From: a virus
DNA length: 64,000 bases
Virus record (IMG/VR): IMGVR_UViG_3300048930_000528
Coordinates: 1-64,000 of that record
Direction: 5' to 3' (one strand)
Shown: one piece after another, positions 2,443 to 56,838 of the stretch
Numbering within the stretch: position 1 is the stretch's first letter
Layout: each line of letters begins with the position of its first letter
The notes under the pieces: model-generated
The model's input: the letters and a program-made list of their open reading frames with translations, nothing else
Told to the model about the DNA's origin: nothing
The model's database searches: none
Translations under genes and position numbers: made by a program

Positions 2443-2458
2443 GGAGTGGTCACAGGCG

Positions 2459-2674
2459 TCAGGCCTTCGGGTCTTCCTTGCTCACTGATGCGGCAGGGTC
2501 CGGCCGCTTCAGGTCGTCGCCCTTCGCAGCCTCGATCTCCTTGCGCATGGTGGCCTGCAATTCGTCGAGCAGGGCGATGGCTCCGGCGCAGGCGTTGGCC
2601 TGGGCGAGGTGGTTGCGCTTTTCGGATTCGAGCTGGGCGCGGCGGGCGGTGATGAATTGTTCGTCGATGGGCAT
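2459..2674 (-). CDS. Small coiled-coil protein
   Basis: 71 aa from ATG 2674 (MPIDEQFITARRAQLESEKR). This start is preferred because GAGGTTACC lies directly before it. The longer reading from 2731 would overlap the upstream gene. The protein is almost wholly charged helix (QLESEKRNHLAQANA...LLDELQATMRKEIEA), predicted coiled coil with no membrane segment. It sits next to the lysis-type genes and the stabilisation protein. Function unknown; a small virion or chaperone component is possible. Confidence 0.6.
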   Translation of the reverse strand: MPIDEQFITARRAQLESEKRNHLAQANACAGAIALLDELQATMRKEIEAAKGDDLKRPDPAASVSKEDPKA

Positions 2675-2711
2675 GGTAACCTCAAAGCAGGGGTGACACG
2701 CGGGGTCAAGG

Positions 2712-3005
2712 TCAGCGGGCGGTCCGCTCAATGAGCCGGTCGAGCTTGGCGCTGACCTCCGCCACGGCCTTCTCCACGCGGGTGATCTGCTGGCCCGTGT
2801 AGCCCTGCGCTGCTGCGTACTCGATGCGAGGCACGAGCGTTTCGAGGCGGGCGGCCTGCTCGCGCTTGGCCTCTTCCAGCGCGTTTACGCGCTGCTCCAT
2901 GCGGCCCTCGCGGGCGCCGAAGTGAAGGATGTTCCCGACGATAGCGATAAGCGCGACGACGGTCGGTAGCCAGCGGGACACGGATTCTTTGGAAGGTGCG
3001 GTCAT
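2712..3005 (-). CDS. Membrane-anchored coiled-coil protein, possible i-spanin
   Basis: 97 aa with one N-terminal transmembrane segment (about residues 12-29, WLPTVVALIAIVGNILHF) followed by a long charged coiled coil (MEQRVNALEEAKREQAARLE). This N-in anchor plus periplasmic coiled coil is the layout of Rz-type inner-membrane spanins. It follows the holin-like gene (3012-3440) by 6 bp, and a proline-rich lipoprotein candidate lies just upstream (3427-3624). A lysis role is inferred from architecture and neighbours; other small phage membrane proteins share this layout. Confidence 0.45.
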   Translation of the reverse strand: MTAPSKESVSRWLPTVVALIAIVGNILHFGAREGRMEQRVNALEEAKREQAARLETLVPRIEYAAAQGYTGQQITRVEKAVAEVSAKLDRLIERTAR

Positions 3006-3011
3006 GGAAGG

Positions 3012-3440
3012 TCACTTCGCCACGCCCGCGCCGAAGTAGAAGCCGGCGATGGCGGAGGCCATTTGCGTGTGGATAGGGAGGAGGACGAAGCCGTCGAGGC
3101 GGACGAACTTGAGCTGGTCGAGAGACGAGCCAAAGAACCAGAAGCCGCCCTTGGCCTCGGAGTAGGCGTAGAAGATCGGCACCTCGGGGAACCAGGCCGC
3201 GAGAATGAAGGGCGCGAGGAAGACGGTGAAGAGCACGACCACCACCATGGCGCGCCGGGCAAGCGGGCCTCCGGTGCCCCCGCGCTTGTCGGCAGCGTCG
3301 GAGGAGGCATCCATGACGCCGACCTTTGCGGCGAGGAGGTCGAGTTCGTGGCGGCGGTTCTCCATCCGCGCCTTCCAGAGTTTGAGCAGGCCGCCGAGGA
3401 GCGACCCGCCGAGCATGGTGATGATTTCAGGGGTGAACAC
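3012..3440 (-). CDS. Holin-like membrane protein
   Basis: 142 aa. The N-terminus MFTPEIITMLGGSLLGGLLK forms a first hydrophobic helix, then a charged linker (ARMENRRHELDLLAAK), a strong membrane helix (AMVVVVLFTVFLAPFILAAW), and a C-terminal hydrophobic segment ending in MASAIAGFYFGAGVAK. Three-helix proteins with this opening resemble the 3-TM holin family of gene transfer agents and phages. The start overlaps the end of the upstream gene. The lysis-cassette context supports the call; the endolysin itself was not found. Confidence 0.5.
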   Translation of the reverse strand: MFTPEIITMLGGSLLGGLLKLWKARMENRRHELDLLAAKVGVMDASSDAADKRGGTGGPLARRAMVVVVLFTVFLAPFILAAWFPEVPIFYAYSEAKGGFWFFGSSLDQLKFVRLDGFVLLPIHTQMASAIAGFYFGAGVAK

Positions 3441-3624
3441 GGCGGGCCTCCGGGCGTACGTGGATGATGGATACGGGGGATTGCTTCGGCGTCTTGGCCT
3501 CGGTCAGCTTGGCCGGGGCCGCCGGCACGTGGTAGGGCAGGTCTGGCTTGCGGAGCGACGAGCAACCGGCGGCGCCGAGCATGAGGCAAATCGGCAGGCC
3601 GATCTTCTTCAGCCACGCGTACAC
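3427..3624 (-). CDS. Nested Rz1-like o-spanin lipoprotein (internal GTG start)
   Basis: An in-frame GTG at 3624-3622 would give a 65-aa product: two lysines, a hydrophobic core, lipobox LGAAGC, then 44 proline-rich residues. That is the size and composition of Rz1-type outer-membrane spanins. AGGA lies about 12 nt upstream. Genes for a holin-like and an i-spanin-like protein follow directly. The internal start is inferred, and the same residues also form the C-terminus of the 265-aa protein. Confidence 0.4.
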   Translation of the reverse strand: MYAWLKKIGLPICLMLGAAGCSSLRKPDLPYHVPAAPAKLTEAKTPKQSPVSIIHVRPEARRVHP

Positions 3625-4224
3625 CGCGGCGAAGATCCTGCGCAGCGAGCCCGGCAGGTAGTGCTTGCGCTTGAACCGCTGGCCTTGGCGGAGCCGGGGC
3701 GTGGTAGCATTGAGCCGCCGCCAAGTGATGGCCGTCTGGTCGTCCGTGCGCAGGTTGATGAAGACGCCCTCGGTGCGGGCCTGCGACTGGTCGGAGTGGT
3801 TGCCGAGGTCCACGTCCACCTCGCGACCGTGGCCGACCTGGATGCCGTTGAGGGTGATGTCCTTTGCGGTCTTGATCGTCGCGAGATGCTTGCCGTTGGG
3901 CACCCAGATCGTATCCGGGTCGCCAACGGTGATGTTTTCGACGCCGTCATTGAAATCGCCGCAGTCCTCACCGCTGCCGTGGATGCGCGGCGTGTGGACG
4001 TGAAGGTTGCGGATCTTGCCGGTGATCTTGAGTGTGTCGGAAGTACCGTCGGGCGGGATGAGCGCGGGCAGATAGACGTGCCGCATCCCGTGTTCGTCGG
4101 GCGCCATCCGGGCCATCACCCCCGGCGCCACCTCAACAGGCTCCTCGCCGAGCACGAAGCCGTTGCAGACGACGAGGTCGCCGTCGGGTACGATGCTGAT
4201 GAAATTCTTGTCTGGCTTGCTCAT
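3427..4224 (-). CDS. Phage protein with beta-rich N-part and C-terminal lipoprotein-like tail
   Basis: 265 aa. Residues 1-170 are beta-rich (KITGKIRNLHVHTPRIHG, ITVGDPDTIWVPNGKHLATI, repeated turns as in a short beta-helix). Residues 201-221 form a hydrophobic signal-like stretch ending in a lipobox (LMLGAAGC, Cys 221), followed by 44 proline-rich residues. A lipobox this deep in a protein is not usable as a signal unless translation also starts internally, hence the separate nested candidate. The start overlaps the stop of the 41-aa gene before it. Function unknown; the N-part could be virion or spike-associated. Confidence 0.6.
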   Translation of the reverse strand: MSKPDKNFISIVPDGDLVVCNGFVLGEEPVEVAPGVMARMAPDEHGMRHVYLPALIPPDGTSDTLKITGKIRNLHVHTPRIHGSGEDCGDFNDGVENITVGDPDTIWVPNGKHLATIKTAKDITLNGIQVGHGREVDVDLGNHSDQSQARTEGVFINLRTDDQTAITWRRLNATTPRLRQGQRFKRKHYLPGSLRRIFAAVYAWLKKIGLPICLMLGAAGCSSLRKPDLPYHVPAAPAKLTEAKTPKQSPVSIIHVRPEARRVHP

Positions 4225-9653: not shown

Positions 9654-9680
9654 CACGTCGGGATCAGGTAGCCCTCAAGC

Positions 9681-21056: not shown

Positions 21057-21208
21057 GGCGGGGTGTTACAGTCTTTTGCTCTAGTTCTTTCCTAAATCGC
21101 TGCTGCTACGAGGCTAGCTTAATAAGCGTGTCCTTCTTAGGTTGACAGATTTGTACCATTTTGCACCCTTTTGCTTGTTCCTTCCTGTGCAGGGAACAGT
21201 TCCCGACG

Positions 21209-22282
21209 ATGCCTCGCCAGCTGACACTCAAGCCGAAGTTCACTCCGTCCCACCCGTCGGCGCCGTGGCGCGTGTACTTCCGCGGCAAGAGCTACTGGTT
21301 CAAGAACGAGGCCGACGCTGTGGCGAAGGCGAAGGATCTGCGTGGCGGCAAGTCGGACCTGACGCTGCGCGAGAGCGACGAGTATCGCTACGCGCGCCAG
21401 CTCCTCGGCCGGGTGCCACTGCTTGAGGCGGTCCGGTTCTACCTCGAGCGGAACCCTACCACCGATCCTACCATGACCGTCGGTGAGGCGATCACGGCGC
21501 ACCTGGCGCGGGCGACCGGCAGGCCGGACTACATGGAGAAAAAGCGATACTTCCTCGGGATTGTCTCTGAGCGGCTGGGCAACGAGAAGCTGGCCGTTGT
21601 CGGACCGGCAAGCGTGCAGGCGCTGATCGACTCGATGACGTCGAAGTGGGGGGCCAACGACGTGCTGAGGCACGCGCGCATTTTCTTCCGCGACTGCATT
21701 CGCCTCAAACTCCTCCGCGAAGATCCGACCGCGGCGTTTCAGGAGCAGAAGGTTCTGCCGAGCAAAGTCATTCTCACCGTCGAAGACACGGCGCACATCC
21801 TGAAGGTCTGCAAGGCACAGTTCCCGGAGATCCTGCCGGCAGTGGCGCTGCAACTCTTCACAGGAATCCGCACGAGTGAAGTGACCCGGTTGGAGTGGAA
21901 GGACGTGCGACTCGGCTCGCTGGTGAACATCGAGCCCCAGGTGGCGAAGACGAGCGAGCGGCGCGTGATAGACTGGTGGCCGGAGGCGCTGACGCACTGG
22001 ATGCCGGCCAAGGCAGGCGAGGGGCCTGTGACGGTTCAGCCCAAGAGCTACGAGGCGCACAAGTGGCAGCTCATCATGGTCTGCAAGGCGTCGAAGTCCG
22101 ACTTCAAGTTTGGGCAGAACGCCTTCCGCCACAGCTTCGCCAGCTTCGGGTGTGCCTACTTCCAGAACGCCGGCAAGGTCGCGCTCCTCATGGGGCACCG
22201 CGACGTGAACATGCTGTTCCGCCACTACCGCGACTACCGCACGAAGGAAGAGGCCGACCGGTACTTTGGCCTACGGCCGTAG
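21209..22282 (+). CDS. int: Tyrosine integrase (phage integrase)
   Basis: 357 aa from ATG 21209; an in-frame start at 21161 would add 16 residues. N-terminal arm/SAM-like domain, then a catalytic domain with Arg in FTGIRTSEVTRLEW, box II NAFRHSFASF, MGHRDVNML and the likely nucleophile Tyr in LFRHY. The residue three before the box II Arg is Asn instead of the usual His. It directs integration at attP/attB, supporting a temperate phage. Convergent with the small membrane gene downstream, divergent from the late operon. Confidence 0.85.
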   Translation: MPRQLTLKPKFTPSHPSAPWRVYFRGKSYWFKNEADAVAKAKDLRGGKSDLTLRESDEYRYARQLLGRVPLLEAVRFYLERNPTTDPTMTVGEAITAHLARATGRPDYMEKKRYFLGIVSERLGNEKLAVVGPASVQALIDSMTSKWGANDVLRHARIFFRDCIRLKLLREDPTAAFQEQKVLPSKVILTVEDTAHILKVCKAQFPEILPAVALQLFTGIRTSEVTRLEWKDVRLGSLVNIEPQVAKTSERRVIDWWPEALTHWMPAKAGEGPVTVQPKSYEAHKWQLIMVCKASKSDFKFGQNAFRHSFASFGCAYFQNAGKVALLMGHRDVNMLFRHYRDYRTKEEADRYFGLRP

Positions 22283-45884: not shown

Positions 45885-46478
45885 ATGAGTACCATGCCCG
45901 CACCCGACATTGCCGCGGTCTTTACCGCCGCCCAAGCCAAGCTCCTCCACCTCGCCGTCGGCCTGCGTGACCGCGAGCCGCTCGCCATGCAGCGTATAAA
46001 CGCTTTCGTCCTCAACAAGACCGGCGCCAAGTTCAACGAGTACCTCACCGGCCCGACGCCCGTCGTCGAGAAGCTCGCCGTCGTGCAGGAAATCACCGCC
46101 ATCGTTGAGTCCGGCGACCTAAGCAAGCTGCCCTCGGCGCCCAACGGCCAAGCCTCGGCCCCGCCGACTGCGCCTCGCACCACCCCGCCGCCGGCCCCGC
46201 CCAAGGTCGAGCAGCCCAAGCAGCCCGAGGTCAAGCAGCCCGAGCCGCCTCCGGCCCCGCCCGCCCCGCCTGCCGTCGACGTGGACGACCTCGCTGACGA
46301 CGACATCGACGCCGACGAACTGGCCGGCGCCATCCAGACCATCGTCAAGGTGGCGGCCAAGCGCAAGGAACCCGCCGCCCCGCCGGCCCCGGCCTTCACC
46401 GAAGCTGACGTGCGCCGCATCATCCGGCACGAACTGGCCGATGCCATGGAGAAGATCGCCAAGGCGCTGCGTGCGTAA
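45885..46478 (+). CDS. Pro/Ala-linked two-part protein
   Basis: 197 aa. An N-terminal helical domain, a Pro-rich linker (residues 90-135, PKVEQPKQPEVKQPEPPPAP), an acidic patch (DVDDLADDDIDADELAG) and a C-terminal helix (EADVRRIIRHELADAMEKIA). The stop codon overlaps the left arm of site H. Unknown. Confidence 0.5.
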   Translation: MSTMPAPDIAAVFTAAQAKLLHLAVGLRDREPLAMQRINAFVLNKTGAKFNEYLTGPTPVVEKLAVVQEITAIVESGDLSKLPSAPNGQASAPPTAPRTTPPPAPPKVEQPKQPEVKQPEPPPAPPAPPAVDVDDLADDDIDADELAGAIQTIVKVAAKRKEPAAPPAPAFTEADVRRIIRHELADAMEKIAKALRA

Positions 46479-46541
46479 CACCGGCAGTCTGCCACCGGAG
46501 GGGCGAAGCCCCGCAGGTTGGCAGTGATGCCTTGGTTCGAC
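46475..46541 (+). repeat. attC-like site H
   Basis: AAC 46477-46479 at the stop codon; paired inner boxes GGCA/TGCC and CTGCCA/TGGCAG; terminal hairpin GGGGC-GAA-GCCCC; ends GTTCGAC at 46535. Marks the 5' edge of the cassette with 46551-47068. Confidence 0.7.
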
Positions 46542-46550
46542 CTTCTTTTT

Positions 46551-46853
46551 ATGAGCTTCGAATACCTGACAACATCCCTCGAAAAAACTCACGCGGCAGC
46601 CCGTGACATGGTCTATCGCGCGACCTTCTTACTCGCGAAACGCGATGACGGAGTGACGGCCTGCGCTCGCCTGCCGCGCCGAAACTCCCGCAAGCTGGAA
46701 ATAGGCTACTGCCTCGGCACGGGTCGAATGACTCATTGGGTCGAAACCGGCATCCTACCGACCGAACATCCCGGCGCGCTCGAATACTGGGTGAAGAAGG
46801 CGTTCTTCTACGCGGACGGACACATAGCGTGTGAGAAAAGGAAAAGCGCATGA
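46551..46853 (+). CDS. Unknown cassette protein
   Basis: 100 aa from ATG 46551 (MSFEYLTTSLEKTHAAARDM); a start at 46527 is also possible. Ends in basic residues (HIACEKRKSA). Lies between attC-like sites H and J. Unknown. Confidence 0.5.
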   Translation: MSFEYLTTSLEKTHAAARDMVYRATFLLAKRDDGVTACARLPRRNSRKLEIGYCLGTGRMTHWVETGILPTEHPGALEYWVKKAFFYADGHIACEKRKSA

Positions 46854-47068
46854 GCTACGAAAACACTCAGTGCGTCTGCGGTGGGCGAAAGCTGACCGAC
46901 ACCATGCTGTGCGCCGACTGCGAGAAAGCAGTCGAAGGTACCTTCGACCGCCGCGAGATGGAAAATCCCGCAGCGACATGGGAGCAGCGGCGCAATGCGG
47001 CGATTCGCTGCCTCGCGGTCGCCCGCCGTCGCAACCCAAGCCTACCGCTTACCTATGCGTGCCGATAG
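46850..47068 (+). CDS. Zinc-binding cassette protein
   Basis: 72 aa with CVCGGRKLTDTMLCADCE (four cysteines), a helical C-terminus. Its stop is directly followed by site J. Unknown. Confidence 0.5.
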   Translation: MSYENTQCVCGGRKLTDTMLCADCEKAVEGTFDRREMENPAATWEQRRNAAIRCLAVARRRNPSLPLTYACR

Positions 47069-47167
47069 GTCGAACGCACAAGCTGACCTATGACCACCGC
47101 GCCCATGACTACCGAATCCACAACAGACGCCGACGCGGTGGGCATTAAGTCCAGCGCCTTGTTCGGC
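47069..47167 (+). repeat. attC-like site J
   Basis: CGAAC at 47071-47075 immediately after the stop codon; CCACCGCG (47094-47101) pairs with CGCGGTGG (47134-47141); CTGAC/GTCCAG region paired with one or two extra bases; ends GTTCGGC at 47161. The next gene starts inside it. Confidence 0.75.
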
Positions 47168-47725
47168 GTGATTTACGCGGACCCGCCGTGGCGGTATGGC
47201 TTCTCTCAATCGGACTCACGCGCCATCGAGTCGCAATATCCGACAATGACCGACGAGGAAATCTGTGCTATCAAGGTGCCTGCTGCCAAGGATGCCGTGC
47301 TCTACCTGTGGGCGGTGGCTCCACGGCTCGCCGCAGGGCTGCGCGTCATGGAAGCGTGGGGATTCGACTACAAGACTTGTGCTGTGTGGGACAAAGAAAA
47401 GGTGGGCATGGGCTACTGGTGGCGCGGACAGCATGAAATCCTCATGGTCGGAACTCGCGGGAAGTTCTCGCCGCCTCCGCAAGCACTCCGCAAGTCGAGC
47501 GTGATTCGCTGCCCGCGTGGACGGCACAGCGCGAAGCCTGACCAAGTGCGCGACTGGATCGGGGAATGGTATCCCGACGTGCCCAAGCTGGAAATGTTCT
47601 CTCGGCTAAAACGACCGGGCTGGGAGGTCTTTGGAAATCAGGTCGAGTATGACCTGCTAAGCGGGGATTTTTCTTCGCCGAACGTCGCGGGTCAGACACG
47701 ACCCGCCGAAAACTCCAACCTGTAA
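47090..47725 (+). CDS. MT-A70-family DNA adenine methyltransferase
   Basis: 211 aa. YADPPWRYGFSQSDSRA carries the DPPW catalytic motif; AAKDAVLYLWAVAPRLAAGL, YKTCAVWDKEKVGMGYWW and EILMVGTRGKF follow as in MT-A70 enzymes. The first about 25 residues are encoded by site J and look like a cassette-derived extension. A phage N6-adenine methylase for self-protection. Confidence 0.85.
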   Translation: MTTAPMTTESTTDADAVGIKSSALFGVIYADPPWRYGFSQSDSRAIESQYPTMTDEEICAIKVPAAKDAVLYLWAVAPRLAAGLRVMEAWGFDYKTCAVWDKEKVGMGYWWRGQHEILMVGTRGKFSPPPQALRKSSVIRCPRGRHSAKPDQVRDWIGEWYPDVPKLEMFSRLKRPGWEVFGNQVEYDLLSGDFSSPNVAGQTRPAENSNL

Positions 47726-47807
47726 CTCCCATGAAAAACCAAAATCCAACTGTAGTCTCTAGCCCGCAGGATCAGTGCGGGTCGTTGTCTGGGAACGCTG
47801 GTTCGGC
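47723..47807 (+). repeat. attC-like site E
   Basis: TAACTCCCA at the stop codon of the methylase; the rest of the left arm pairs with TGTCTGGGA on the right. Inner hairpin CCCGCA/TGCGGG; ends GTTCGGC at 47801. A 6-nt unpaired spacer lies on the right only. Confidence 0.65.
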
Positions 47808-48015
47808 TGCCTTTGCTTTTCCAGTGGGCTCCCGCGTGAAGATCATAGCCGCCGACCCAGAGTGCCCCGCCGACTTTATCGGCTCCGAAGGGACAGTGGT
47901 GAGAATCGCCCCAGCGGATGAAAACTGCTCAGACGATATGTATTCGGTGCGCACGGATAGCGGTAAGCAAGACGGATTCTTTTCAGATGAGCTGATTTCT
48001 TTGCCGAACCAGTGA
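47731..48015 (+). CDS. SH3/KOW-like small protein
   Basis: 94 aa. The first 35 residues come from site E. Then PVGSRVKIIAADPECPADFI and GSEGTVVRIAPADENCSDDM resemble an SH3-like barrel. The 73 bp after its stop hold no gene and no clear site. Unknown. Confidence 0.5.
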   Translation: MKNQNPTVVSSPQDQCGSLSGNAGSAAFAFPVGSRVKIIAADPECPADFIGSEGTVVRIAPADENCSDDMYSVRTDSGKQDGFFSDELISLPNQ

Positions 48016-48088
48016 TTGTGCCACGTGCGTCCGCATGGACTTGCGTAACTCAATATAAACCAACTCAAACCCAAACCACCCGTGCGAC

Positions 48089-51000
48089 ATGATTAAAGAC
48101 CAACGATCCGGCATCTCTGCGGAGAACCTCCAAGAGATCATCGAGGCCGGCGTCAGCGCAGCGCACTCGCTCCAGGGCGGAGCGCAGCAGTACAGCACGC
48201 CTCAGTGGCTGGCCAACGCCTGCCGCCAGCTGATCACGGACGCCCGGCCTTCGTGCGTCCTTGATCCCCAAGGTGCGGCAGGCAACCTCGTCAATGCCCT
48301 GCCCGATGGCGTCACCCGCTACGTCACGGACATCGACAACCGCATGGGCGAGGACGATGCCTCGCACCTCATCAAGCGCATCAAGGGCAACTGCGTCTAC
48401 ATCTTCGAGCTGTTCGATGAACTGTACCCGCACGTTCAGTTCCCGTGCATCGTCGCCAATCCACCCTTCGGCATCCGCTGGAAGCAGGCCGACGGCACCA
48501 CAATCGACAGCACTCAGTGGACGTGGGACCTCATCAAGAAACGCCTGACCATTGGCGGCTGCGGTTTCCTGATCTCCAACGCCAACACTCTTGAGCGCCT
48601 CGGCATCACCGCGGACCCGTGGGTCTACATCGTGCAGCGCTTCCCGGCCGGCGGCATCTGGCCCGACTGCAACGTTGAGCTTGGCATCGTGCACTTTGCC
48701 AACAGCGCGTCCAATATCCTGCCGCGAAAGCAGGTTGTGACCTGGGACCGTGTACCCACGGCGAGCGACATCATCCGCCGCCTGTCTGGCGACGTTGCCA
48801 ATGCGCCGTACCGTCGGGCGACGTACGCCAACCCATTCACCGAGTTTGAGGTGGTGTCCAAAATCATTTCCGAGGAGGCGAAGAACCGGCCCCAGTTCAA
48901 CATCTACCTCGACAAGAATGGCATGCTGCGGACCTACCTCAGCCTGCGCCATCACCACAAGTTCAAGGAGGACGACGTCAAGAAGCTGTTCCGCGTGAAC
49001 AACTGCCACCCACTATCCCTCACCACGGAGCGCGACACGCGGAAGCTCATGTTCGAGCTGGCCAACGCCGGCATCTACACTATCCAGCCCGAGGCCAAGG
49101 CCGCCATCGAGCAGGCGCTTGCCGAAGTCGCCAGCCTTGCCTGCCCAATCCGCCCGGTCACCGACTTCGAACTGGTCGCCTACGCCGACGAAGAGGACAC
49201 GCTTGTCGCCATCTCCGGCACGGTTGACGGCATCCACCTCACGCCCGGCAAGCGGTACGAAGTTGGCACTGGCACGTACACCTTCACGGATCGCTTCACC
49301 CGCAAGAAGATCCACTTCAACGAGGAGACCGAGGAGACCACGATCGACGAGCACGACTGCGAACTCTCCGGGCAAGATCGCTACGTGCAGATCACGGACG
49401 ACCGAGGCATGCAGCACCGCTTCATGGAGCGACCCGAGACCGGCATCAAATGGATGCACCCGGAGTCCATGCTTTGGACTTTGTTCAAGCGTCCCTTCGT
49501 TCCCACCGTTGGCGAAGTCATGGCTGATTGCGTGGCGACCAACCTCCAGAAGATGGCGTTCTCTGAGCTAGTCGCTGGCTTCACCTATTTCCCCGGCCAG
49601 CGTGACTACTATTCCCGCATGGCGTGCAAGGATTATGGGCTGGTGGCTGCGAGTACCGGATGCCATGCGAAAGGGACGCTAATCATGATGAGCGATGGCC
49701 GAAATAAAATCGTGGAAGACATCATTGTTGGTGATTGCGTGATGGGTTGGGACTCGACGCCGAGGCGGGTCACTCGCTTGGCTCAAGGGCGTCAGCAGAT
49801 GGCCAAGATAATCCCCACTAAAGGAGATCCGTTCGTCGTCAACTTGGACCATATTTTAACGCTGGTTAAGACCGGAACAAGTTCGTCGGTCGGCGGGGAC
49901 GTAATTGACGTGAAGGTCAGAGATTACCTCGGATGGAAGCCATCGCAAAAGCATATTTATAAACTCTTCCGCAAGGAGATTAGCCTACAAGCAAAACCAA
50001 TCGACTCCCTTTCGCCGTACTTCATGGGGGTTTACATTGGCGACGGGACATCGACGTCGTGGCAGGTTGCAATTACAAAGCCCGACAAGGAGGTTGAGGA
50101 TGCTGTTGCCGATGAGTGCTCAAAGTGGGGATGGCGATACAGGACCGCGTTGCGGTCTGGGTCGGAAACGAATAAGACACACTTCATCCCAGGTCACGGC
50201 ATAAAGCGAGAGCTTTATCAACATGGGCTTCTTGGAATACACTCAAGCAATAGGTTTATTCCAGACGCTTACAAGTACAACAGCCGTGATGTGAGGCTTG
50301 AGGTTCTTGCTGGCATCATTGATAGCGACGGCCACCTTTGTGATGCCGGAACATTTGACTACATAAGCCAATCGCAATCTCTTGCCGATGATGTTGTGTG
50401 GTTGGCTAGATCAGTCGGGCTTGCCGCTTACGTGAAGCCATGCCAGAAGTATTGCCAGACCGGAGGCGGAGGCACGTATCATAGGGTTTCCATATCAGGC
50501 GAACTCTCTATCATTCCAACAAGAATCAAGCGCAAGCAAGCCGCGCAACGCAGGCAGAAGAAAAGCGTCCTGCGAACAGGATTCAAAGTTGAGCTTCTGC
50601 CAGAGGATGACTACTACGGGTTCAGTATTGAAGGCGACGGGCGGTTCTTGCTTGGCGACTTTACAGTGACCCACAACACCGGCAAAACCCTGGGGGCTTT
50701 GACACTCATCAGCCTCAAGGCGCCGCGCCGTTCGCTCATCATCGCTCCGCAGGGAACGATGCGCTCGTCCGGCTCGGAGGAGGAGGTTGATTATCAGGCA
50801 TCGCAGTGGGTGCAGGAGATCACGCGCTTCGCCCCGCTCGAGCCCGTGTTCCAGTTGTTCAGCATGCAGGATTACCTGTCCGTCCTGCACGCCAACGGCG
50901 GCGTGCTTCCGCCCGGCATCTACGTCACCTACCCGCAGGCTTACTTCTCCAACAGCGCCTTCGAGTCCTTGCCTGCCACATGGGAAAACCTCGACGCCTT

Positions 51001-52420
51001 CGAGACAGAGGAAAAGTTCTGCCGGCGCATGGGCCTGCCGTTCAGCAAGGATACTCCCGTGGAGCGCCACTACCACACTGGCGTTGGCTCGGCCAAGAAC
51101 GGTATCCGGTGCGTGGCGACGCCGTCGCTGTCCACCGTCATCGCAACCAACCATGGCGAGTGGGACATGGTTGTCTTGGACGAGGCGCACCTTTACCAGA
51201 GCCTTGAATCTTGCATCACGAACAACATGATCCGGCTTCAACCGCGGTTCAGGTTCGCACTCACTGCCACACCAATCAGCAACATCATCACGAACATATT
51301 CAGCCTCATGGGTTGGCTGTGCGTGAAGGACTGGTACAGGGGTGGGATGCGTAACGCCGCATGGCCCTATGCCGTGGACGAGGGGCATCGGTTTTCGACG
51401 ACATTCCTTGCCACCGAGATCGACCGCACGGCGCAGCTCAAAGCCAAGATGAAAGGCAAGAAGGGGTGGGGCAAGATCGGCATCAGGCCGTCGCCCGTCA
51501 TCAGTTCCCCGGCTCGCCTGCTCAAGCTCCTCAAGCCGACGATGGCGTACATCTCCAAAGAGGACTGCAACCCCAACCTCCAGCCGTGCACCGTGTCCGA
51601 TGTCCGCGTGCCAATGGGTCGCGAGCAGGCCAAGCTCTATGCGTACTGGCTGGAGCGGGCCAACTACGTTCCCGAGTTCAAGAACCCGCTGACGATCGCC
51701 CAGGTTCAGATGTCCCGGCTGCGTGGCGTCTGTGCCTCGCCGGCCAGCCTCGACTACACCCGCGGCATGGCCCGGTCCAACTTCAACCCGAAGACCGTCA
51801 CCATCCTTCAACTCATCCGTGACTGCCTCCGCAAGGGCGAGCAGGTGGTTGTCGTCTCGGCTCGTGTTGGCCAGTCAAACGAGTTGGCGCGTCGCCTTTC
51901 CGAGGCCGGAGTCCAGATCGCACGCATCGACTCGACCGTGCCGGCGGAGATGCACACGGCTGAGGCCAACAGGTTCAAGCGTGGCGACGCCCGCGTCATG
52001 CTCATGGGCATCAAGTGCGCACAGGGTCACTCGTTTGACCGATGCCCCAACCTCATCGTTGGCTCGCTCGAGTGGTCCTACGGCACGCTCGACCAGGCGA
52101 AGGGCCGGGTGTGGCGCCTGACCTCGCCTCAGCCCGTCAAGGTGTGGATCGTCCTTCACCAGAACACGATTGAGGAGCTCCTGTTCGACCGGGTTGCGCT
52201 CAAGCAGGACGCCGCCACGCTGTGCCTTCACGGCAAGCGGGTGCCGCGTGACTTCAAGACGCTTGACCCGAGCGAGGTGCTGGCCGAGCACATCGTTGAC
52301 TTCGACCACGAAGGCGAGACGCGGTCCGAATCCGAGTGCGAAACGCAGTGGCCCGACCTGCGCAAGCAGCTCGTCCTCGCCAACAACAGCGGCATCCCGG
52401 CCGGCTTCGCCGCGGCCTGA
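48089..52420 (+). CDS. N6-adenine methyltransferase-helicase fusion with intein (antirestriction-like)
   Basis: 1443 aa. Residues 56-128: motif I CVLDPQGAAGNL and catalytic NPPF in IVANPPFGIRWKQ. Residues 524-864 and onward form an SNF2/SF2 helicase: Walker A STG-TGKT split by the intein, DEAH in WDMVVLDEAHLYQSL, FALTATPISN, QxxGRxWR in LDQAKGRVWRLTSP. Extein about 1104 aa. P1 DarB is a known methylase-helicase virion antirestriction protein, so a similar role is inferred. Follows the MT-A70 cassette. Confidence 0.85.
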   Translation: MIKDQRSGISAENLQEIIEAGVSAAHSLQGGAQQYSTPQWLANACRQLITDARPSCVLDPQGAAGNLVNALPDGVTRYVTDIDNRMGEDDASHLIKRIKGNCVYIFELFDELYPHVQFPCIVANPPFGIRWKQADGTTIDSTQWTWDLIKKRLTIGGCGFLISNANTLERLGITADPWVYIVQRFPAGGIWPDCNVELGIVHFANSASNILPRKQVVTWDRVPTASDIIRRLSGDVANAPYRRATYANPFTEFEVVSKIISEEAKNRPQFNIYLDKNGMLRTYLSLRHHHKFKEDDVKKLFRVNNCHPLSLTTERDTRKLMFELANAGIYTIQPEAKAAIEQALAEVASLACPIRPVTDFELVAYADEEDTLVAISGTVDGIHLTPGKRYEVGTGTYTFTDRFTRKKIHFNEETEETTIDEHDCELSGQDRYVQITDDRGMQHRFMERPETGIKWMHPESMLWTLFKRPFVPTVGEVMADCVATNLQKMAFSELVAGFTYFPGQRDYYSRMACKDYGLVAASTGCHAKGTLIMMSDGRNKIVEDIIVGDCVMGWDSTPRRVTRLAQGRQQMAKIIPTKGDPFVVNLDHILTLVKTGTSSSVGGDVIDVKVRDYLGWKPSQKHIYKLFRKEISLQAKPIDSLSPYFMGVYIGDGTSTSWQVAITKPDKEVEDAVADECSKWGWRYRTALRSGSETNKTHFIPGHGIKRELYQHGLLGIHSSNRFIPDAYKYNSRDVRLEVLAGIIDSDGHLCDAGTFDYISQSQSLADDVVWLARSVGLAAYVKPCQKYCQTGGGGTYHRVSISGELSIIPTRIKRKQAAQRRQKKSVLRTGFKVELLPEDDYYGFSIEGDGRFLLGDFTVTHNTGKTLGALTLISLKAPRRSLIIAPQGTMRSSGSEEEVDYQASQWVQEITRFAPLEPVFQLFSMQDYLSVLHANGGVLPPGIYVTYPQAYFSNSAFESLPATWENLDAFETEEKFCRRMGLPFSKDTPVERHYHTGVGSAKNGIRCVATPSLSTVIATNHGEWDMVVLDEAHLYQSLESCITNNMIRLQPRFRFALTATPISNIITNIFSLMGWLCVKDWYRGGMRNAAWPYAVDEGHRFSTTFLATEIDRTAQLKAKMKGKKGWGKIGIRPSPVISSPARLLKLLKPTMAYISKEDCNPNLQPCTVSDVRVPMGREQAKLYAYWLERANYVPEFKNPLTIAQVQMSRLRGVCASPASLDYTRGMARSNFNPKTVTILQLIRDCLRKGEQVVVVSARVGQSNELARRLSEAGVQIARIDSTVPAEMHTAEANRFKRGDARVMLMGIKCAQGHSFDRCPNLIVGSLEWSYGTLDQAKGRVWRLTSPQPVKVWIVLHQNTIEELLFDRVALKQDAATLCLHGKRVPRDFKTLDPSEVLAEHIVDFDHEGETRSESECETQWPDLRKQLVLANNSGIPAGFAAA
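49661..50677 (+). other. LAGLIDADG intein in methylase-helicase Walker A
   Basis: 339 aa from Cys 525 to the HN before TGKT. CHAKGTLIMMSDGRNKIVED, SPYFMGVYIGDGTSTS, LEVLAGIIDSDGHLCD, then GRFLLGDFTVTHN. Related throughout to the intein at 26814-27881 and inserted at the same codon position. Confidence 0.9.
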
Positions 52421-52424
52421 CACC

Positions 52425-52625
52425 ATGAGCAACGACTTCGAGAAGGTGGAGCTTCACGGCGGTCCGCTTGACGGGCTTGAGTTGTTTGCCAGCGAATCGT
52501 TCAAGCTGGAGGAACTCGATCCCGAGACTGGGCTCATCCACGTCTACGTGAGACGCGGCAGTGGCGTCTTCCAGTACGCCGGCCACCAGCCATCCGGCCT
52601 GCCTCCGGCGCTGGGCGGAAGCTGA
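52425..52625 (+). CDS. Small unknown protein
   Basis: 66 aa (MSNDFEKVELHGGPLDGLEL ... YVRRGSGVFQYAGHQPSGLP). Starts 5 bp after the fusion gene. Beta-rich. Resembles short 'HGGPlDG' phage proteins. Unknown. Confidence 0.5.
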   Translation: MSNDFEKVELHGGPLDGLELFASESFKLEELDPETGLIHVYVRRGSGVFQYAGHQPSGLPPALGGS

Positions 52626-52626
52626 T

Positions 52627-52656
52627 TTGACATTGCCAAATCGCCGGATGTAACCT
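52627..52656 (+). promoter_or_regulatory. Promoter-like element upstream of the recombinase
   Basis: TTGACA (52627-52632), 18 nt, TAACCT (52651-52656), then ATG 52668. The -35 is perfect and the -10 poor. Would let the recombinase be expressed apart from the fusion gene. Confidence 0.35.
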
Positions 52657-52667
52657 CGGATTCCAGC

Positions 52668-53669
52668 ATGCCCACGACAAAGAAAGCCGCAGGACTCAAG
52701 ATCAAGGCGATGGACTCCACCAAGGTGACGCCGGCGGCGATCCGCGCAGCCAAGAAGATCCTTCGGGCCGCCGAAGAGTCGGGCATGCAGGATGCAATCC
52801 TCGCTGCGCTCATGCAGCGGAAGACCGTACCCGTGAAGCAGGCCTTGGCCGAGTGGCACCTATGGCGGAAGGCGAACTCGTCAGCGTCCACGCTCCGCAC
52901 CAACCGGCTGGCACTAGATCAGTTCTTCGATGGGCTCGAGGCCGCAAACTGGCCGGTGTCAAAAATCACGATCCAGCACATTGACGCATGGGTTAACAAA
53001 GACGACGCCTGCAAGCGGGCCACCCGCGAGGCAAAGCTCGCCGCCATCCGATCGTTCTACAAGTTCGTCACCGCGAATGCCTATTGCCAGACCAACCCGG
53101 CGCAGCTGGTGCATGTTCGCATTCGCGACATGACGCACGCTCAGCTGGAGCGCACCGTGCGCGAGCCCATCACCGAGCACGAGTACCGGCATATCATGGC
53201 CAACACCGAAGGCTTTTGGAAATGGGCAACGGCGATCAGCTACTGGGCGGGGCTGCGCATGAGCGACGTGTTCGCACTCCAGTGGGCTCAGATCATGCCC
53301 ACCGAGATCGTAGCCTGGGCGAAAAAAGACGGCGACCGGCTAGTGCTTCCACTCAACCACCCGCTCATCGGCGGAGGGGAGTTGGTGCCTGTGCTGTTCG
53401 AGGTATTGAGTAATCGCCAAGACGATACATACTGCTTCCCCGATCAGCATCGCGAGATGGCCGACATCGAGAAGCGTTCCAAGTTCTCGGTCTACTATAC
53501 ACGCCTGCTTGCCGGGCTAGGCATTGAAGGCAAGAGCTTCCATTCGCTGCGGCATGCGTTTGCCACCCGGCTCGCCAACGCAGGGGTGACACCTGAGCAG
53601 ATCGGGCGGTGGATGGGGCACAGTTCGACGCGCATCACCGAGGGGTACATCCACCGCGGCAAGCGATGA
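52668..53669 (+). CDS. Tyrosine recombinase at the cassette region
   Basis: 333 aa of Xer/phage type. SAM-like N-terminal domain (TLRTNRLALDQFFDGLEAAN), then catalytic Arg in YWAGLRMSDVFALQW, box II HSLRHAFATRL, MGHSSTRITEG and nucleophile Tyr in GYIHRGKR. The extra helix found in integron integrases (IntI) between boxes is absent. It lies between two groups of attC-like sites and reads towards the second. Candidate cassette recombinase, although the outer boxes differ from classical GTTRRRY. Confidence 0.85.
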   Translation: MPTTKKAAGLKIKAMDSTKVTPAAIRAAKKILRAAEESGMQDAILAALMQRKTVPVKQALAEWHLWRKANSSASTLRTNRLALDQFFDGLEAANWPVSKITIQHIDAWVNKDDACKRATREAKLAAIRSFYKFVTANAYCQTNPAQLVHVRIRDMTHAQLERTVREPITEHEYRHIMANTEGFWKWATAISYWAGLRMSDVFALQWAQIMPTEIVAWAKKDGDRLVLPLNHPLIGGGELVPVLFEVLSNRQDDTYCFPDQHREMADIEKRSKFSVYYTRLLAGLGIEGKSFHSLRHAFATRLANAGVTPEQIGRWMGHSSTRITEGYIHRGKR

Positions 53670-53709
53670 TCGGTAAACCATCATCAATCATCGAATCCCT
53701 GATCGTCCA

Positions 53710-53931
53710 ATGAGTAACCCACAGAACGAACTGACGCCGTCCGCTGGCCCGAATTGCGCTGTGGCGTCTGGTTCGCCTCCGGGGCTCTACAACCTATACG
53801 TCCGCCACACCGATGGGCGCACAAAGAAACTGACGGGCTACGCGATGACACATCACGAGTGCTGCGTGATGAAGAGCAAACTAAGCGAATGGACGCAGGC
53901 TCGCACACTGCTCGTAAAGGAGACGAAATGA
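53710..53931 (+). CDS. Cassette protein
   Basis: 73 aa. The first 22 residues come from site A. Then GLYNLYVRHTDGRTKKLTGY and a Cys/Lys-rich C-terminus. Overlaps the next gene by ATGA. Unknown. Confidence 0.5.
   Translation: MSNPQNELTPSAGPNCAVASGSPPGLYNLYVRHTDGRTKKLTGYAMTHHECCVMKSKLSEWTQARTLLVKETK
53714..53777 (+). repeat. attC-like site A
   Basis: First site after the recombinase. AAC at 53716; CACAG (53720-53724) pairs with CTGTG (53759-53763), or CGAAC..GACGCC with GGCGTC..GTTCG; ends GTTCGCC at 53771. Left arm nearly identical to the half-site at 45843. Confidence 0.65.
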
Positions 53932-54188
53932 AACACGACCCAGACCACTACCTCACGCAGCCGATGGACAATCAGGAGGCGGCGCACAATCGCCGCGTGG
54001 CCGTGACGGCCGAGAACGTCGCCGCGTGTGCGCAAGCCATCCGCGACCTCGACCGCATCACGCCGCGCCCGCTCACCGCCGAAGACCAAGCGCGTGCCGT
54101 GCTCACGTTCTTGGCGAACACCAAGGTGACCGATGCGCAGCCCAAGGCGAACGACGCCGGACCGGGTAGCAATGCGCATTCGGTCTAG
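53928..54188 (+). CDS. Cassette protein
   Basis: 86 aa from ATG 53928 (MKHDPDHYLTQPMDNQEAAH). Helical (AENVAACAQAIRDLDRITPR). Its stop lies within site G. Unknown. Confidence 0.5.
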   Translation: MKHDPDHYLTQPMDNQEAAHNRRVAVTAENVAACAQAIRDLDRITPRPLTAEDQARAVLTFLANTKVTDAQPKANDAGPGSNAHSV

Positions 54189-54201
54189 CGAATGGTTCAG
54201 C
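54146..54201 (+). repeat. attC-like site G
   Basis: GGCGAAC on the left and GTTCAGC on the right; inner box GACCG (54160-54164) pairs with CGGTC (54181-54185). The loop contains the palindrome AATGCGCATT. The next ATG (54192) overlaps the right arm. Confidence 0.6.
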
Positions 54202-54482
54202 CCTCTTTTATGCCCTCACCAATCGAAAGAATGATCGACGCCGCGACCGGCTACACGCCGCCGCCAGCGCCGAAGAAACGCACGCTCCCGACTGCCGAAG
54301 AAAAGCAGATAGCGACCGATGCCGGAAACGACGTCATCTGGTATATCGACGCGCAGTATCCCGCGATGTGGGACGGCGTGCCGAAGTCAGCGCGGACCAG
54401 CGTGAAAAACGCCGTCTACAACCGCGTGATCTTAATCTTGCTGAACGCCAAGATCAGCAACGCGGGGACGAAAACAGAATGA
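54192..54482 (+). CDS. Cassette protein
   Basis: 96 aa (SPIERMIDAATGYTPPPAPK, then DVIWYIDAQYPAMWDGVPKS). Helical C-terminus. Unknown. Confidence 0.5.
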   Translation: MVQPSFMPSPIERMIDAATGYTPPPAPKKRTLPTAEEKQIATDAGNDVIWYIDAQYPAMWDGVPKSARTSVKNAVYNRVILILLNAKISNAGTKTE

Positions 54483-54486
54483 CTCT

Positions 54487-54771
54487 ATGAGCACGAAAAT
54501 CGAAGACAAACCCATAGCGAGCGCCGGAGCGGACAGCTCCCCGCGTTGCGCTGTATCGCCTGGTTCGACGATTGAAACGACCGAACGCAAGGTGATGGTC
54601 GCGCTCTGCGGACTGTGCATCGCCGTCTTCTGCGCGGCTCTTCTCGGCATCGCTTTCTACGTGCATGTCGTCGCCGGGCTATTCGCTCTCGCGCTCATCG
54701 CGTGGTGGCTCGGCTCATCGATGGCCGAAGTGCTCAAGGAAACTCGCGAGCGTGATTCGTCGAACGACTAG
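54487..54771 (+). CDS. Two-helix membrane cassette protein
   Basis: 94 aa. The first 28 residues include site B. Two hydrophobic helices (VALCGLCIAVFCAALLGIAF and VVAGLFALALIAWWLGSS). Stop next to site K. Unknown. Confidence 0.5.
   Translation: MSTKIEDKPIASAGADSSPRCAVSPGSTIETTERKVMVALCGLCIAVFCAALLGIAFYVHVVAGLFALALIAWWLGSSMAEVLKETRERDSSND
54509..54569 (+). repeat. attC-like site B
   Basis: AAC at 54509; AGCG box pairs with CGCT; terminal hairpin GGAGC-GGACA-GCTCC; ends GTTCGAC at 54563. A left arm starting at 54473, nearer the stop codon, is also possible. Confidence 0.55.
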
Positions 54772-54854
54772 GTATGCCAGCCCTACCCGCCATCGATGTT
54801 GATTCGCCAGTAACTGCCCGCCGGGTAGGGATTGGCATGACCGACTTGTTCGGG
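54761..54854 (+). repeat. attC-like site K
   Basis: Best example: CGAAC (54761), spacer, TATGCCA..CCCTACCC on the left; GGGTAGGG..TGGCAT, spacer, GTTCGGG (54848) on the right. One arm has an extra base. Starts inside the stop region of the previous gene. Confidence 0.8.
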
Positions 54855-55331
54855 GTTGTGGACGTGGTGCCGAGTGACATCGTGCTGACCCCGGAACCAA
54901 TCGCGCAAGCCGTGGTGGAACGCTTCAAACCATCTGGCCGCGTGCTCGATCCGTGCAAGGGAGATGGTGCCTTCCTGAAGTTCATGCCTGGTGCTGAGTG
55001 GTGCGAGATTCGCGAAGGCCGATGCTTCTACGACTGGAAAGAGCCGGTGGACTGGATCGTCTCGAATCCACCTTACAGCGTCTTCTCGGACTTCCTTCGG
55101 CACAGCTTCACGGTGGCGGAAAACATCGTCTATCTGATCCCCGTCAACAAGGCGTTCAACTCTGACAAGATGATGCGCGAAATCTGGTCATGGGGAGGCG
55201 TGAAAACCATCTTCGTGATTGGCTCCGGTGGATCGCTGAACTTCCCAATCGGCTTCTGCATAGGAGCTGTTCACTTCGTGCGCGGCTATCGGGGCGGCGC
55301 GAATGTGGAATTTTATACCCCGAACACCTAG
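54774..55331 (+). CDS. DNA adenine methyltransferase (NPPY class)
   Basis: 185 aa. VLDPCKGDGAFLKF is motif I; VDWIVSNPPYSVFSDF holds the catalytic NPPY. Class I fold without a distinct target domain. Start 54774 would include residues from site K; ATG 54837 at the right arm is probably the real start (MTDLFGVVDVVPSDIVLTPE). Confidence 0.75.
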   Translation: MPALPAIDVDSPVTARRVGIGMTDLFGVVDVVPSDIVLTPEPIAQAVVERFKPSGRVLDPCKGDGAFLKFMPGAEWCEIREGRCFYDWKEPVDWIVSNPPYSVFSDFLRHSFTVAENIVYLIPVNKAFNSDKMMREIWSWGGVKTIFVIGSGGSLNFPIGFCIGAVHFVRGYRGGANVEFYTPNT

Positions 55332-55412
55332 CTCAGACATGGCTGGCTCTCCCTCAACTCTCGAACACTTGGCGGCCCCGCGCCAGCCATTGTCTGTGGC
55401 GTCTGGTTCGCT
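55321..55412 (+). repeat. attC-like site C
   Basis: CGAAC (55321) overlaps the stop region of the methylase; CAGACATGGCTGGC (55334-55347) pairs with GCCAGCCATTGTCTG (55382-55396), leaving one extra base; ends GTTCGCT at 55406. Inner hairpin TGGCG/CGCCA. Confidence 0.8.
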
Positions 55413-56130
55413 GCTTCTTTGGAACGCGGACTGCATAGAAGTGCTGCCACAAATCACGGCGGCGGCGGTTATCACCGATCCGCCCTATGGCATCAACGAT
55501 GCAGCTTTCGATTCGGGGCCACGCGAAGGAAAACGCAAGGGAGGCGATAATACTTGGCATCCGGCAAGCGATTGGGATGCGGAGATAAAGCCGGAATGGT
55601 GCGCTGCGGTATGCGCTGCCGCGCCGGTGGTCGCATGGATGGGCCACTGGAGAAAACGCGGCATGGTAGAGGCAGCGATGCCCCACAAACTGCGCGCGGA
55701 AATAGTGTGGGCAAAAGACTGCCATGTAGGCCCGCCATGTCCGGTGGCAATGCAGGATGAGCGCGTGTGGCTATTCTCGCGCGAAGGCATCACGGCTAAG
55801 CGATTTGACACGACCGTGTGGAGCGTTCCGATAATCCCGACGTGGGCACATAAGCACCACAAAAACGAGAAGCCGGTCGCGCTGATGGCGCGAGCGATCT
55901 ACCTGCTGACATCCGAAGGTGATACCGTGCTCGATCCATTCATGGGGAGCGGCACGACGGCAATCGCGTGCATCCGGACGGGCCGCAAATTCATCGGGGT
56001 GGAGCGCGACCCCGCGCACTTCCAAACGGCAGTCGAGCGCATCCGCCGAGAACTGGCACAGGGCGACCTGTTTTTGCCAGCGAACACTGAGGTCAGAGAA
56101 TCGCGCCCTGACCCGACCAAACAACCCTGA
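55339..56130 (+). CDS. DNA N4/N6-methyltransferase (DPPY class)
   Basis: 263 aa. TDPPYGINDAAFDSG is motif IV; a central target-recognition region follows; DPFMGSGTTAIACIRTGRKF, then IGVERDPAHF, gives the AdoMet-binding end, so this is the beta order (IV before I). Residues 1-25 come from site C. Modifies DNA, likely for self-protection. Confidence 0.85.
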   Translation: MAGSPSTLEHLAAPRQPLSVASGSLLLWNADCIEVLPQITAAAVITDPPYGINDAAFDSGPREGKRKGGDNTWHPASDWDAEIKPEWCAAVCAAAPVVAWMGHWRKRGMVEAAMPHKLRAEIVWAKDCHVGPPCPVAMQDERVWLFSREGITAKRFDTTVWSVPIIPTWAHKHHKNEKPVALMARAIYLLTSEGDTVLDPFMGSGTTAIACIRTGRKFIGVERDPAHFQTAVERIRRELAQGDLFLPANTEVRESRPDPTKQP

Positions 56131-56187
56131 ACCTTCAACGAACAATCAGAGCGGCTGCACGCGATTCTCTGCACCGTCTGGTTGGGA
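56130..56187 (+). repeat. attC-like site D
   Basis: CAAC/GTTG outer pair; CAGA(G)CGG(C)TGCA (56147-56159) pairs with TGCACCGTCTG (56170-56180) with two extra bases; ends GTTGGGA at 56181, the only copy with GTTGG. Immediately follows a stop codon. Confidence 0.7.
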
Positions 56188-56196
56188 ATTTCCATC

Positions 56197-56457
56197 ATGG
56201 ACCAAATACTAAAAGCACGATCTGCAATCGTCGCGGAACTCAAACGCCGCGCTCTGGAAAAAGACCCGAACGTAAGGCCACTGAATCCGGATGCCGCCCT
56301 TCGCTGGCACAAGCCGCAGGACAACTACTATTCGGGCGCTGGCGAAATGGCGTGCCCGATCTGCGAGGCAGGGAAACTGCGCTACAGCCGAAGCGGCTAC
56401 AATGGGCATGTCCACGCGGGCTGCACAACGGAAGGGTGTGTGTCATGGATGGAGTGA
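56197..56457 (+). CDS. Zinc-ribbon cassette protein
   Basis: 86 aa from ATG 56197 (MDQILKARSAIVAELKRRAL), 16 bp after site D. CPICEAGKLRYSRSGYNGHV and CTTEGC form a four-cysteine ribbon. DNA binding is plausible. Confidence 0.55.
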   Translation: MDQILKARSAIVAELKRRALEKDPNVRPLNPDAALRWHKPQDNYYSGAGEMACPICEAGKLRYSRSGYNGHVHAGCTTEGCVSWME

Positions 56458-56469
56458 CCGCGACACTTC

Positions 56470-56580
56470 CCAACGAAAAAGGTGAGCCGCGCTCGCCGAA
56501 GAAAGGACAATGACATGAGCGGAGAAAAGACATCCGAAGACGTGACGGCTGCGAGCGTTGGCTCTACCGACGGGTTCGGC
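56470..56580 (+). repeat. attC-like site F
   Basis: AAC (56472) near the stop; GAGCC..CGCTCGC (56484-56496) pairs with GCGAGCG..GGCTC (56551-56564); ends GTTCGGC at 56574. The start of the next gene lies in its loop. Confidence 0.75.
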
Positions 56581-56838
56581 GATGGCTGCGACCACTGTGA
56601 CACCTTCGGAGGGCAGAAGACCTACGCGAACCAAGCGTGCCTGCCGCTCAACGGTCGCGTCGTGTGCGTGGACTGGTGCATCCATCAAATCGTGGCGGCG
56701 CTCAACGCCGGCGGCGTGCGCACGACTGCGTGCTGCTGCGGTCATGGGCGAATGCCGGGCCGCATCGACCTTGAGGACGGCCGCATACTCACGATCTCTT
56801 CGCCGAACAAGGCGGATATGCCGACGTGCAGCAAATAA
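56515..56838 (+). CDS. Cysteine-rich cassette protein
   Basis: 107 aa from ATG 56515. CDHCDTFGG and RVVCVDWCIHQIVAALNAGG, then TACCCGHG, give eight or more cysteines, metal-binding. Recurring in phages and mobile DNA. A possible degenerate site (AAC 56843, GTT 56864) follows. Confidence 0.55.
   Translation: MSGEKTSEDVTAASVGSTDGFGDGCDHCDTFGGQKTYANQACLPLNGRVVCVDWCIHQIVAALNAGGVRTTACCCGHGRMPGRIDLEDGRILTISSPNKADMPTCSK

Follow-up and report, generated by a model that had tools for sequence, protein, structure and literature searches.

Do phages carry integron gene cassettes, and to which gene does each attC site then belong? The question is raised by IMG/VR virus record IMGVR_UViG_3300048930_000528, in which genes alternate with imperfect palindromes. 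We analyzed bases 1-64000 (hereafter, the window) of this 72,049-base record, a phage genome with packaging and replication genes that encodes a terminase large subunit, a DnaB-like helicase and a tail protein. Integron cassettes are known mainly as bacterial units in which a gene is followed by its attC. The window holds two integron cassette arrays with ten cassettes. Most probably, the attC comes first in each cassette, crossover falls in the R'' box, the integron integrase (IntI) acts in trans, and open reading frames (ORFs) mostly start inside the attC.

Identification of attC sites

Junctions were first read by eye, and the same anatomy was then found in other viral contigs. Covariance model R1 was built from seven sites, all from outside the window, and model R2 from 19 sites, those of the window included; the E-values of both are rough. 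In the window, R1 matched sites C, J, B, F, G, H and D at E-values of 6e-11 to 1.5e-5, all on the + strand and all within 46.4-56.6 kb. Its next-best matches were site E (E 0.055) and part of site M (E 0.32), with nothing convincing elsewhere in the 64 kb. R2 added K (E 2.5e-6) and M (47071-47167, E 8e-4) and, beyond the arrays, matched nothing else in the window or in its relative G001. Among 76 loci fetched by motif (about 690 kb), matches with E < 0.05 were limited to five array-bearing contigs and one single match. A detector that used geometry only, with no fitted sequence, found 6 sites in the 5.6 kb of window arrays versus 1 in 20 kb of control window DNA. No Rfam family matched the sites, and R2 had no matches in Shewanella phage M16-3 or in two GenBank IntI loci. 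Most matches to 15- and 17-base motifs in viral contigs were chance matches, and a motif scan of bacterial genomes gave 7 matches, about the chance number, so the exact phage motif is not common in bacterial genomes.

The sites are laid out as R'', a spacer of 8-9 nt, L'', stem, loop, stem, L', a spacer of 9-10 nt and R', and this anatomy is present at H, J, G, B, K, C, D, F and M. Double changes occur at 11 of 11 L and stem pairs, with a covariation score of 0.478 versus 0.112 after shuffling. Site F and a G001 site (G001-c) had been considered a separate site type, which was dropped once their true R' boxes were located. With nine attC sites plus a weak one, covariation in the stems and no IntI found, the record carries a cluster of attC sites lacking integron-integrases (CALIN). 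The original prediction of integron-type arrays with DNA methylases in a phage is thus borne out by R1, which is free of window sites, and by the matched cassette ends described below. Eight of the ten sites it listed stand (H, J, G, B, K, C, D and F), while E is weak, A (about 53.93 kb) is an overlapping ORF junction with no hairpin and no model match, and M had been missed. Several spans have also been corrected: R' of F is the GTT at 56574, R'' of D lies at 56081-56085, and the R'' boxes of B and J are at 54442 and 47679.

Matched cassette ends

A circular integron cassette has a single attC, the R'' and R' of which are complementary. In an array, therefore, the two ends of each cassette should match one another, while those of neighbors differ. 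This is the strongest test applied here, and its outcome is the best proof that these are integron cassettes. When the model is used to place the ends, all eight internal cassettes of the window are reverse-complementary over 7-9 bp though their neighbors differ, and among 40,320 possible pairings the true one alone attains the total. In four phages, 16 of 20 cassettes match over at least 7 bp as against 8% of cross pairs, and the total was attained in 0 of 200,000 permutations; the model already contains, in part, the five GAAC/GTTC bases, and the permutation accounts for this. The ends of the two terminal window cassettes, which were placed by hand, match over 7 and 9 bp. Cassettes measure 203-680 bp from R' to R''. 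Chance, which the original prediction had named along with terminators as what might explain the palindromes, is ruled out by R1, as a model free of window sites, and by these matched ends. End complementarity has also been reported for saliva cassettes (PMC4909258).

Cassette arrays and their genes

Array 1 (46.47-48.01 kb)
46475-46541, + strand: attC H, first site of the array (R1 30.7 bits, E 9.2e-7; R2 36.1 bits)
46551-46853, + strand: cassette ORF of 100 aa with its own ATG after R' of H
46850-47068: second ORF, 72 aa, after the 100-aa ORF
47071-47167, + strand: attC M (R2 26.3 bits, E 8e-4)
47090-47725, + strand: predicted MT-A70-type DNA adenine methylase, ATG within attC M (Pfam PF05063, 2.2e-17)
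47679-47807, + strand: attC J (R1 38.5 bits, E 3.4e-9)
47731-48015, + strand: cassette ORF of 94 aa, ATG within attC J
48003-48009, + strand: R'' box closing the array (GCCGAAC) with no hairpin after it, 7-bp match to R' of J

Array 2 (53.73-56.81 kb) and the adjoining recombinase
52668-53669, + strand: tyrosine recombinase adjoining array 2, XerC/D-like and not IntI
53710-53931, + strand: cassette ORF of 73 aa, in frame through E (...AVASGS)
53727-53777, + strand: weak attC-like site E, first junction of the array (R1 15.4 bits, E 0.055; R2 17.8 bits, E 0.12)
54115-54201, + strand: attC G (R1 34.7 bits, E 5.2e-8)
54192-54482, + strand: cassette ORF of 96 aa, probable start 54210
54442-54569, + strand: attC B (R1 38.0 bits, E 4.7e-9)
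54487-54771, + strand: cassette ORF of 94 aa, ATG within attC B
54761-54854, + strand: attC K (R2 35.9 bits, E 2.5e-6; missed by R1)
54774-55331, + strand: predicted DNA methyltransferase, in-frame ATGs at 54774 and 54837, both within attC K (phrog_799, 5.1e-22)
55321-55412, + strand: attC C (R1 44.1 bits, E 5.9e-11)
55339-56130, + strand: predicted N6/N4 DNA methylase of 263 aa, ATG in the stem of attC C (Pfam PF01555, 6.3e-25)
56081-56187, + strand: attC D (R1 26.9 bits, E 1.5e-5)
56197-56457, + strand: cassette ORF with its own ATG after R' of D
56470-56580, + strand: attC F (R1 35.6 bits, E 2.7e-8)
56515-56838, + strand: cassette ORF of 107 aa, ATG within attC F
56801-56808, + strand: R'' box closing the array (CGCCGAAC) with no hairpin after it, 9-bp match to R' of F

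The R'' of H (GCGTAAC) shares bases with the stop codon of the phage gene that precedes it, and the boundaries of M yield matched ends of 9 and 8 bp for the two cassettes that adjoin it. Except for one weak match, the small cassette proteins had no relatives in GenBank phages. The predicted methylases suggest that part of the use of the cargo is protection from host restriction.

Polarity of the cassettes

Related arrays show which piece of DNA is shared as a unit. In phage G133, an exact duplicate of 368 bp runs from one R'' to the next and includes the upstream attC and the gene, with differing flanks; a block of 385 bp, 87% identical between G005 and G133, has the same R''-to-R'' limits. 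Among the related arrays compared, no shared block of a gene with its downstream attC was seen, while several blocks comprised an attC only and some a gene without attC. In these phages, the gene-sense strand has the extra unpaired base by the L box in its 3' half (17:2; 5:0 in the window). The base lies in the 5' half at 6/6 sites of a planctomycete chromosomal integron, in which the genes are on the opposite strand relative to the same attC model, and at 3/3 sites of a Marinobacter plasmid and Shewanella phage M16-3. In known integrons, the recombined strand is determined by unpaired features like this one (PMC8946536). Both window arrays, as well as those of G003, G005 and G133, start with a full hairpin and end with a bare R'', as expected if each cassette begins with its attC.

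Four observations, namely the R''-to-R'' blocks, the side on which the extra base lies, the way the arrays end and the position of IntI 3' of the G133 array (see below), indicate that the attC most likely belongs to the downstream gene, the reverse of the textbook order of gene then attC. On this point the original prediction of integron-like arrays is amended, since in ordinary cassettes the attC belongs to the upstream gene: the 5:0 asymmetry of the window and the R''-to-R'' blocks of related arrays point away from an attC at the 3' end of its gene. Our own first reading, in which canonical cassettes had N-terminal leaders that were swapped with each insertion, was replaced after the G133 duplicate and the asymmetry test.

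Probable translation starts within attC sites

In the gene frame, 18 of 25 cassettes have an ATG no more than 85 nt before the R' GTT and no intervening stop codon, compared with 6 of 50 other frames (p 3e-7). In several cassettes, a start at the first ATG past R' would truncate the gene, and the methylase at site C has no such ATG for 233 bases. Cassettes that do not start within the attC begin shortly after R'. The R' box reads GTTA in 8 own-start and 3 read-through cassettes, the remaining counts being 7 and 22 (p 0.009, in a post hoc, hand-classified comparison); as a lead only, GTTC in place of GTTA in read-through cassettes may fit avoidance of an in-frame stop. Own-start cassettes often have a run of T between R' and the ATG (CTTCTTTTTATG, CCTCTTTTATG), as seen at 46535-46553 and 54195-54212 of the window and in L096 and L097.

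Gain and loss of cassettes between relatives

Relatives were located via the terminase and then via a two-sequence helicase profile; single-protein IMG/VR queries with the recombinase and with the helicase gave no matches. The gene order helicase, recombinase, large gene is common to G001 (73.8 kb) and G010. The recombinase and the large gene converge, with their stop codons separated by 1 bp in G001, 8 bp in G010 and 3.5 kb here, such that the 3.5-kb array 2 is absent from two relatives with the same flanking genes. G001 has other cassettes, placed between the helicase and the recombinase, and where array 1 sits it has a 451-residue gene. No attC was found in G011, a more distant relative with a recombinase orthologue. 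The cassette content of relatives thus differs, with array 2 missing between conserved flanks and other cassettes elsewhere, and not with the same genes held fixed at the GTT points, the finding that would have spoken against the original prediction.

Further observations concern these genomes. The window's SNF2-type helicase (48089-52420) carries an intein at 49661-50677 (339 aa, with Hint and homing-endonuclease domains) in its ATP-binding loop, and its G001 and G010 orthologues are without this intein. In G005, L109 and L110, one attC sequence (about 90-97% identical) stands ahead of genes that differ between the phages, as if reused for new cassettes. Two pairs of 100-120 bp direct repeats (92-96% identical) adjoin the array at about 1500-4200 of the reverse complement of L097 (G003).

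Recombinases and IntI

An integrase was called IntI when it exceeded the TIGR02249 cut-off of 265 bits. None did so in G000, G001, G003, G004, G005, G010 or G011. The recombinase at 52668-53669 scored 31.9 bits on this model versus 61.5 and 60.0 for XerC and XerD, and its best solved relative is XerD. Three relatives' recombinases carry an N-terminal extension that is absent from this protein; it is read here as the probable arm-binding domain of an ordinary phage integrase. A second, weak tyrosine recombinase gene (21161-22282; Pfam PF00589, 30.7 bits) lies far from the arrays, and G005 has an integrase-like gene by PHROGs that was missed by the Pfam search. In two relatives, a short attC-like site is situated just upstream of the recombinase gene (L059 8162-8212, 27.4 bits; L089 5277-5326, 26.0 bits) and is a possible resident site.

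G133 encodes a full IntI (281.9 bits) that is 40% identical to IntI1, with IntI4 as its best PDB match. The gene directly follows the last cassette on the same strand (L110, reverse complement, position 9661 onward), in a contig whose major head, portal, tail-fibre and amidase genes mark it as phage; GenBank phages have only distant IntI matches to it, below 41% identity. G132 (L109, contig 720-944, minus strand) has an N-terminal IntI fragment directly after its array (40.4 bits, below the cut-off), as if the integrase gene had decayed. With no IntI found in the present record, IntI in trans is the likeliest driver, and G133 shows that a phage of the group can carry one. IntI supplied in trans therefore probably moves the cassettes.

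Discussion

We propose that an attC would fold as single-stranded DNA and be recombined by an IntI-type integron integrase, with crossover in its R'' box (RYYYAAC), such that the mobile unit would run from one R'' to the next. Insertion by this route would leave a full hairpin at the left end of the array and a bare R'' at the right. Most cassette ORFs would begin at an ATG in their own attC, their frame continuing across its 3' arm into the gene, and the others would start just after R'. The IntI could come from the host or from another phage of the G133 kind. Whether these phages form an integron branch of their own is a further claim, toward which we lean slightly: IntI would be retained in some (G133) and decayed or lost in others, with reversed polarity, recombination at R'' on the gene-sense strand and an attC that doubles as translation start.

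Several points weigh against these proposals. R1 was preceded by a site template that had been sketched by eye from overlapping material. Site E is weak, with its start codon upstream of the model's R''; no IntI over the cut-off was found in the 72-kb record, nor a convincing attI, for which E is a weak candidate at most. The ends of the two G001 cassettes match poorly (over 5 and 3 bp), and two G133 sites show the opposite asymmetry. In five later arrays, a start within the attC was found in only 6 of 15 cassettes versus 5 of 30 other frames (p 0.14), with automatic frame choice that mis-assigned some genes, and this effect thus needs a larger set. No cassette of the window phage was found in a second context, and the R''-to-R'' unit was seen only in G133 and G005. 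Shared attCs without their gene (G005 and L109; two attCs within G133) and a shared gene without its attC (G133 and L116) would mean that exchange at R' has also occurred or that attCs are reused.

Other explanations have to accommodate the same evidence. That the hairpins are terminators, regulatory hairpins or chance products of GC-rich DNA is scarcely credible, even though they stand between genes, have strong stems and lack an Rfam family. ORFs read through them, which a terminator would block, and the fixed anatomy with covariation, the specificity of the models, the complementarity of cassette ends and the precise absence of cassettes in relatives all argue against it. We also consider it very improbable that the phage's own tyrosine recombinase (52668-53669) works the cassettes in a convergent, integron-like system without IntI. 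Array 2 does begin about 60 bp past its stop codon, an attC-like site lies just upstream of its orthologue in G001 and G010, and Xer-type enzymes are known to act on folded single-stranded DNA in the case of CTX phage. Its scores are nevertheless XerC/XerD-like rather than those of an integron integrase, and the N-terminal extension of three relatives, absent here, is probably the arm-binding domain of an ordinary phage integrase; moreover, G011 has an orthologue but no attC was found in it, and the G003 array occurs with no Pfam tyrosine recombinase in its partial record.

An ordinary phage-borne CALIN, captured from a host chromosomal integron by host IntI, with gene then attC and crossover at the R' GTT, is unlikely. 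In its favor, the sites are true attCs and no IntI was found in the record; phage CALINs with methylases have been published (PMC9892861), the same model fits attCs of an IntI-bearing planctomycete genome, and some shared blocks end at R'. What it would not predict is an extra base on the opposite side relative to gene direction, blocks shared from R'' to R'' with none of gene plus downstream attC, a full hairpin on the left and a bare R'' on the right, starts within the upstream attC, and an IntI placed 3' of the G133 array. These features favor attC-first cassettes.

If this is true, a group of phages, including one that encodes IntI, exchanges and rearranges cassettes and thereby takes an active part in the cassette pool, with methylases as an evident cargo. 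An attC placed ahead of its gene would contradict the textbook rule of cassette polarity, and a start codon in the attC could readily explain how cassettes that lack both a promoter and a ribosome site are translated.

Comparison with known systems

CALINs occur in virulent and temperate phages, and even whole integrons have been found in phages (Qi et al. 2023, PMC9892861). Those CALINs resemble the present arrays in being attC clusters without intI in phage genomes, with DNA methyltransferase cassettes, so that phage-borne arrays with methylases are less unusual than the original prediction supposed. They differ from the case described here, in which two arrays lie in one phage, relatives have different cassettes, and the attC most likely comes first and contains the start codon. 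What is most likely new is the attC-first order and the start codons within attC, phage attC clusters themselves being known already. Our search of the open literature found nothing on attC-first arrays or gene frames through attC; most subscription papers fell outside it, and hence it is no proof of novelty.

The Planctomycetota chromosomal integron (genome G012) has attCs found by the same model and an IntI (449.8 bits), but there the gene precedes the attC: with respect to an attC asymmetry of the same kind, the genes are on the opposite strand. In the reverse integron of Treponema denticola, intI has the same direction as the cassettes (PMC4909258), as in G133. In G133, however, intI follows the array with its 5' end facing the last cassette, and the polarity of attC relative to the genes is most likely flipped. 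Translation signals are known in attI1 (ORF-11) and in attC, including short ORFs in attC (PMC8876359), and these systems share with ours a translation start within the recombination site. In those systems a separate short peptide is coupled to the gene, whereas in the phage arrays the gene's own frame crosses the site without a stop.

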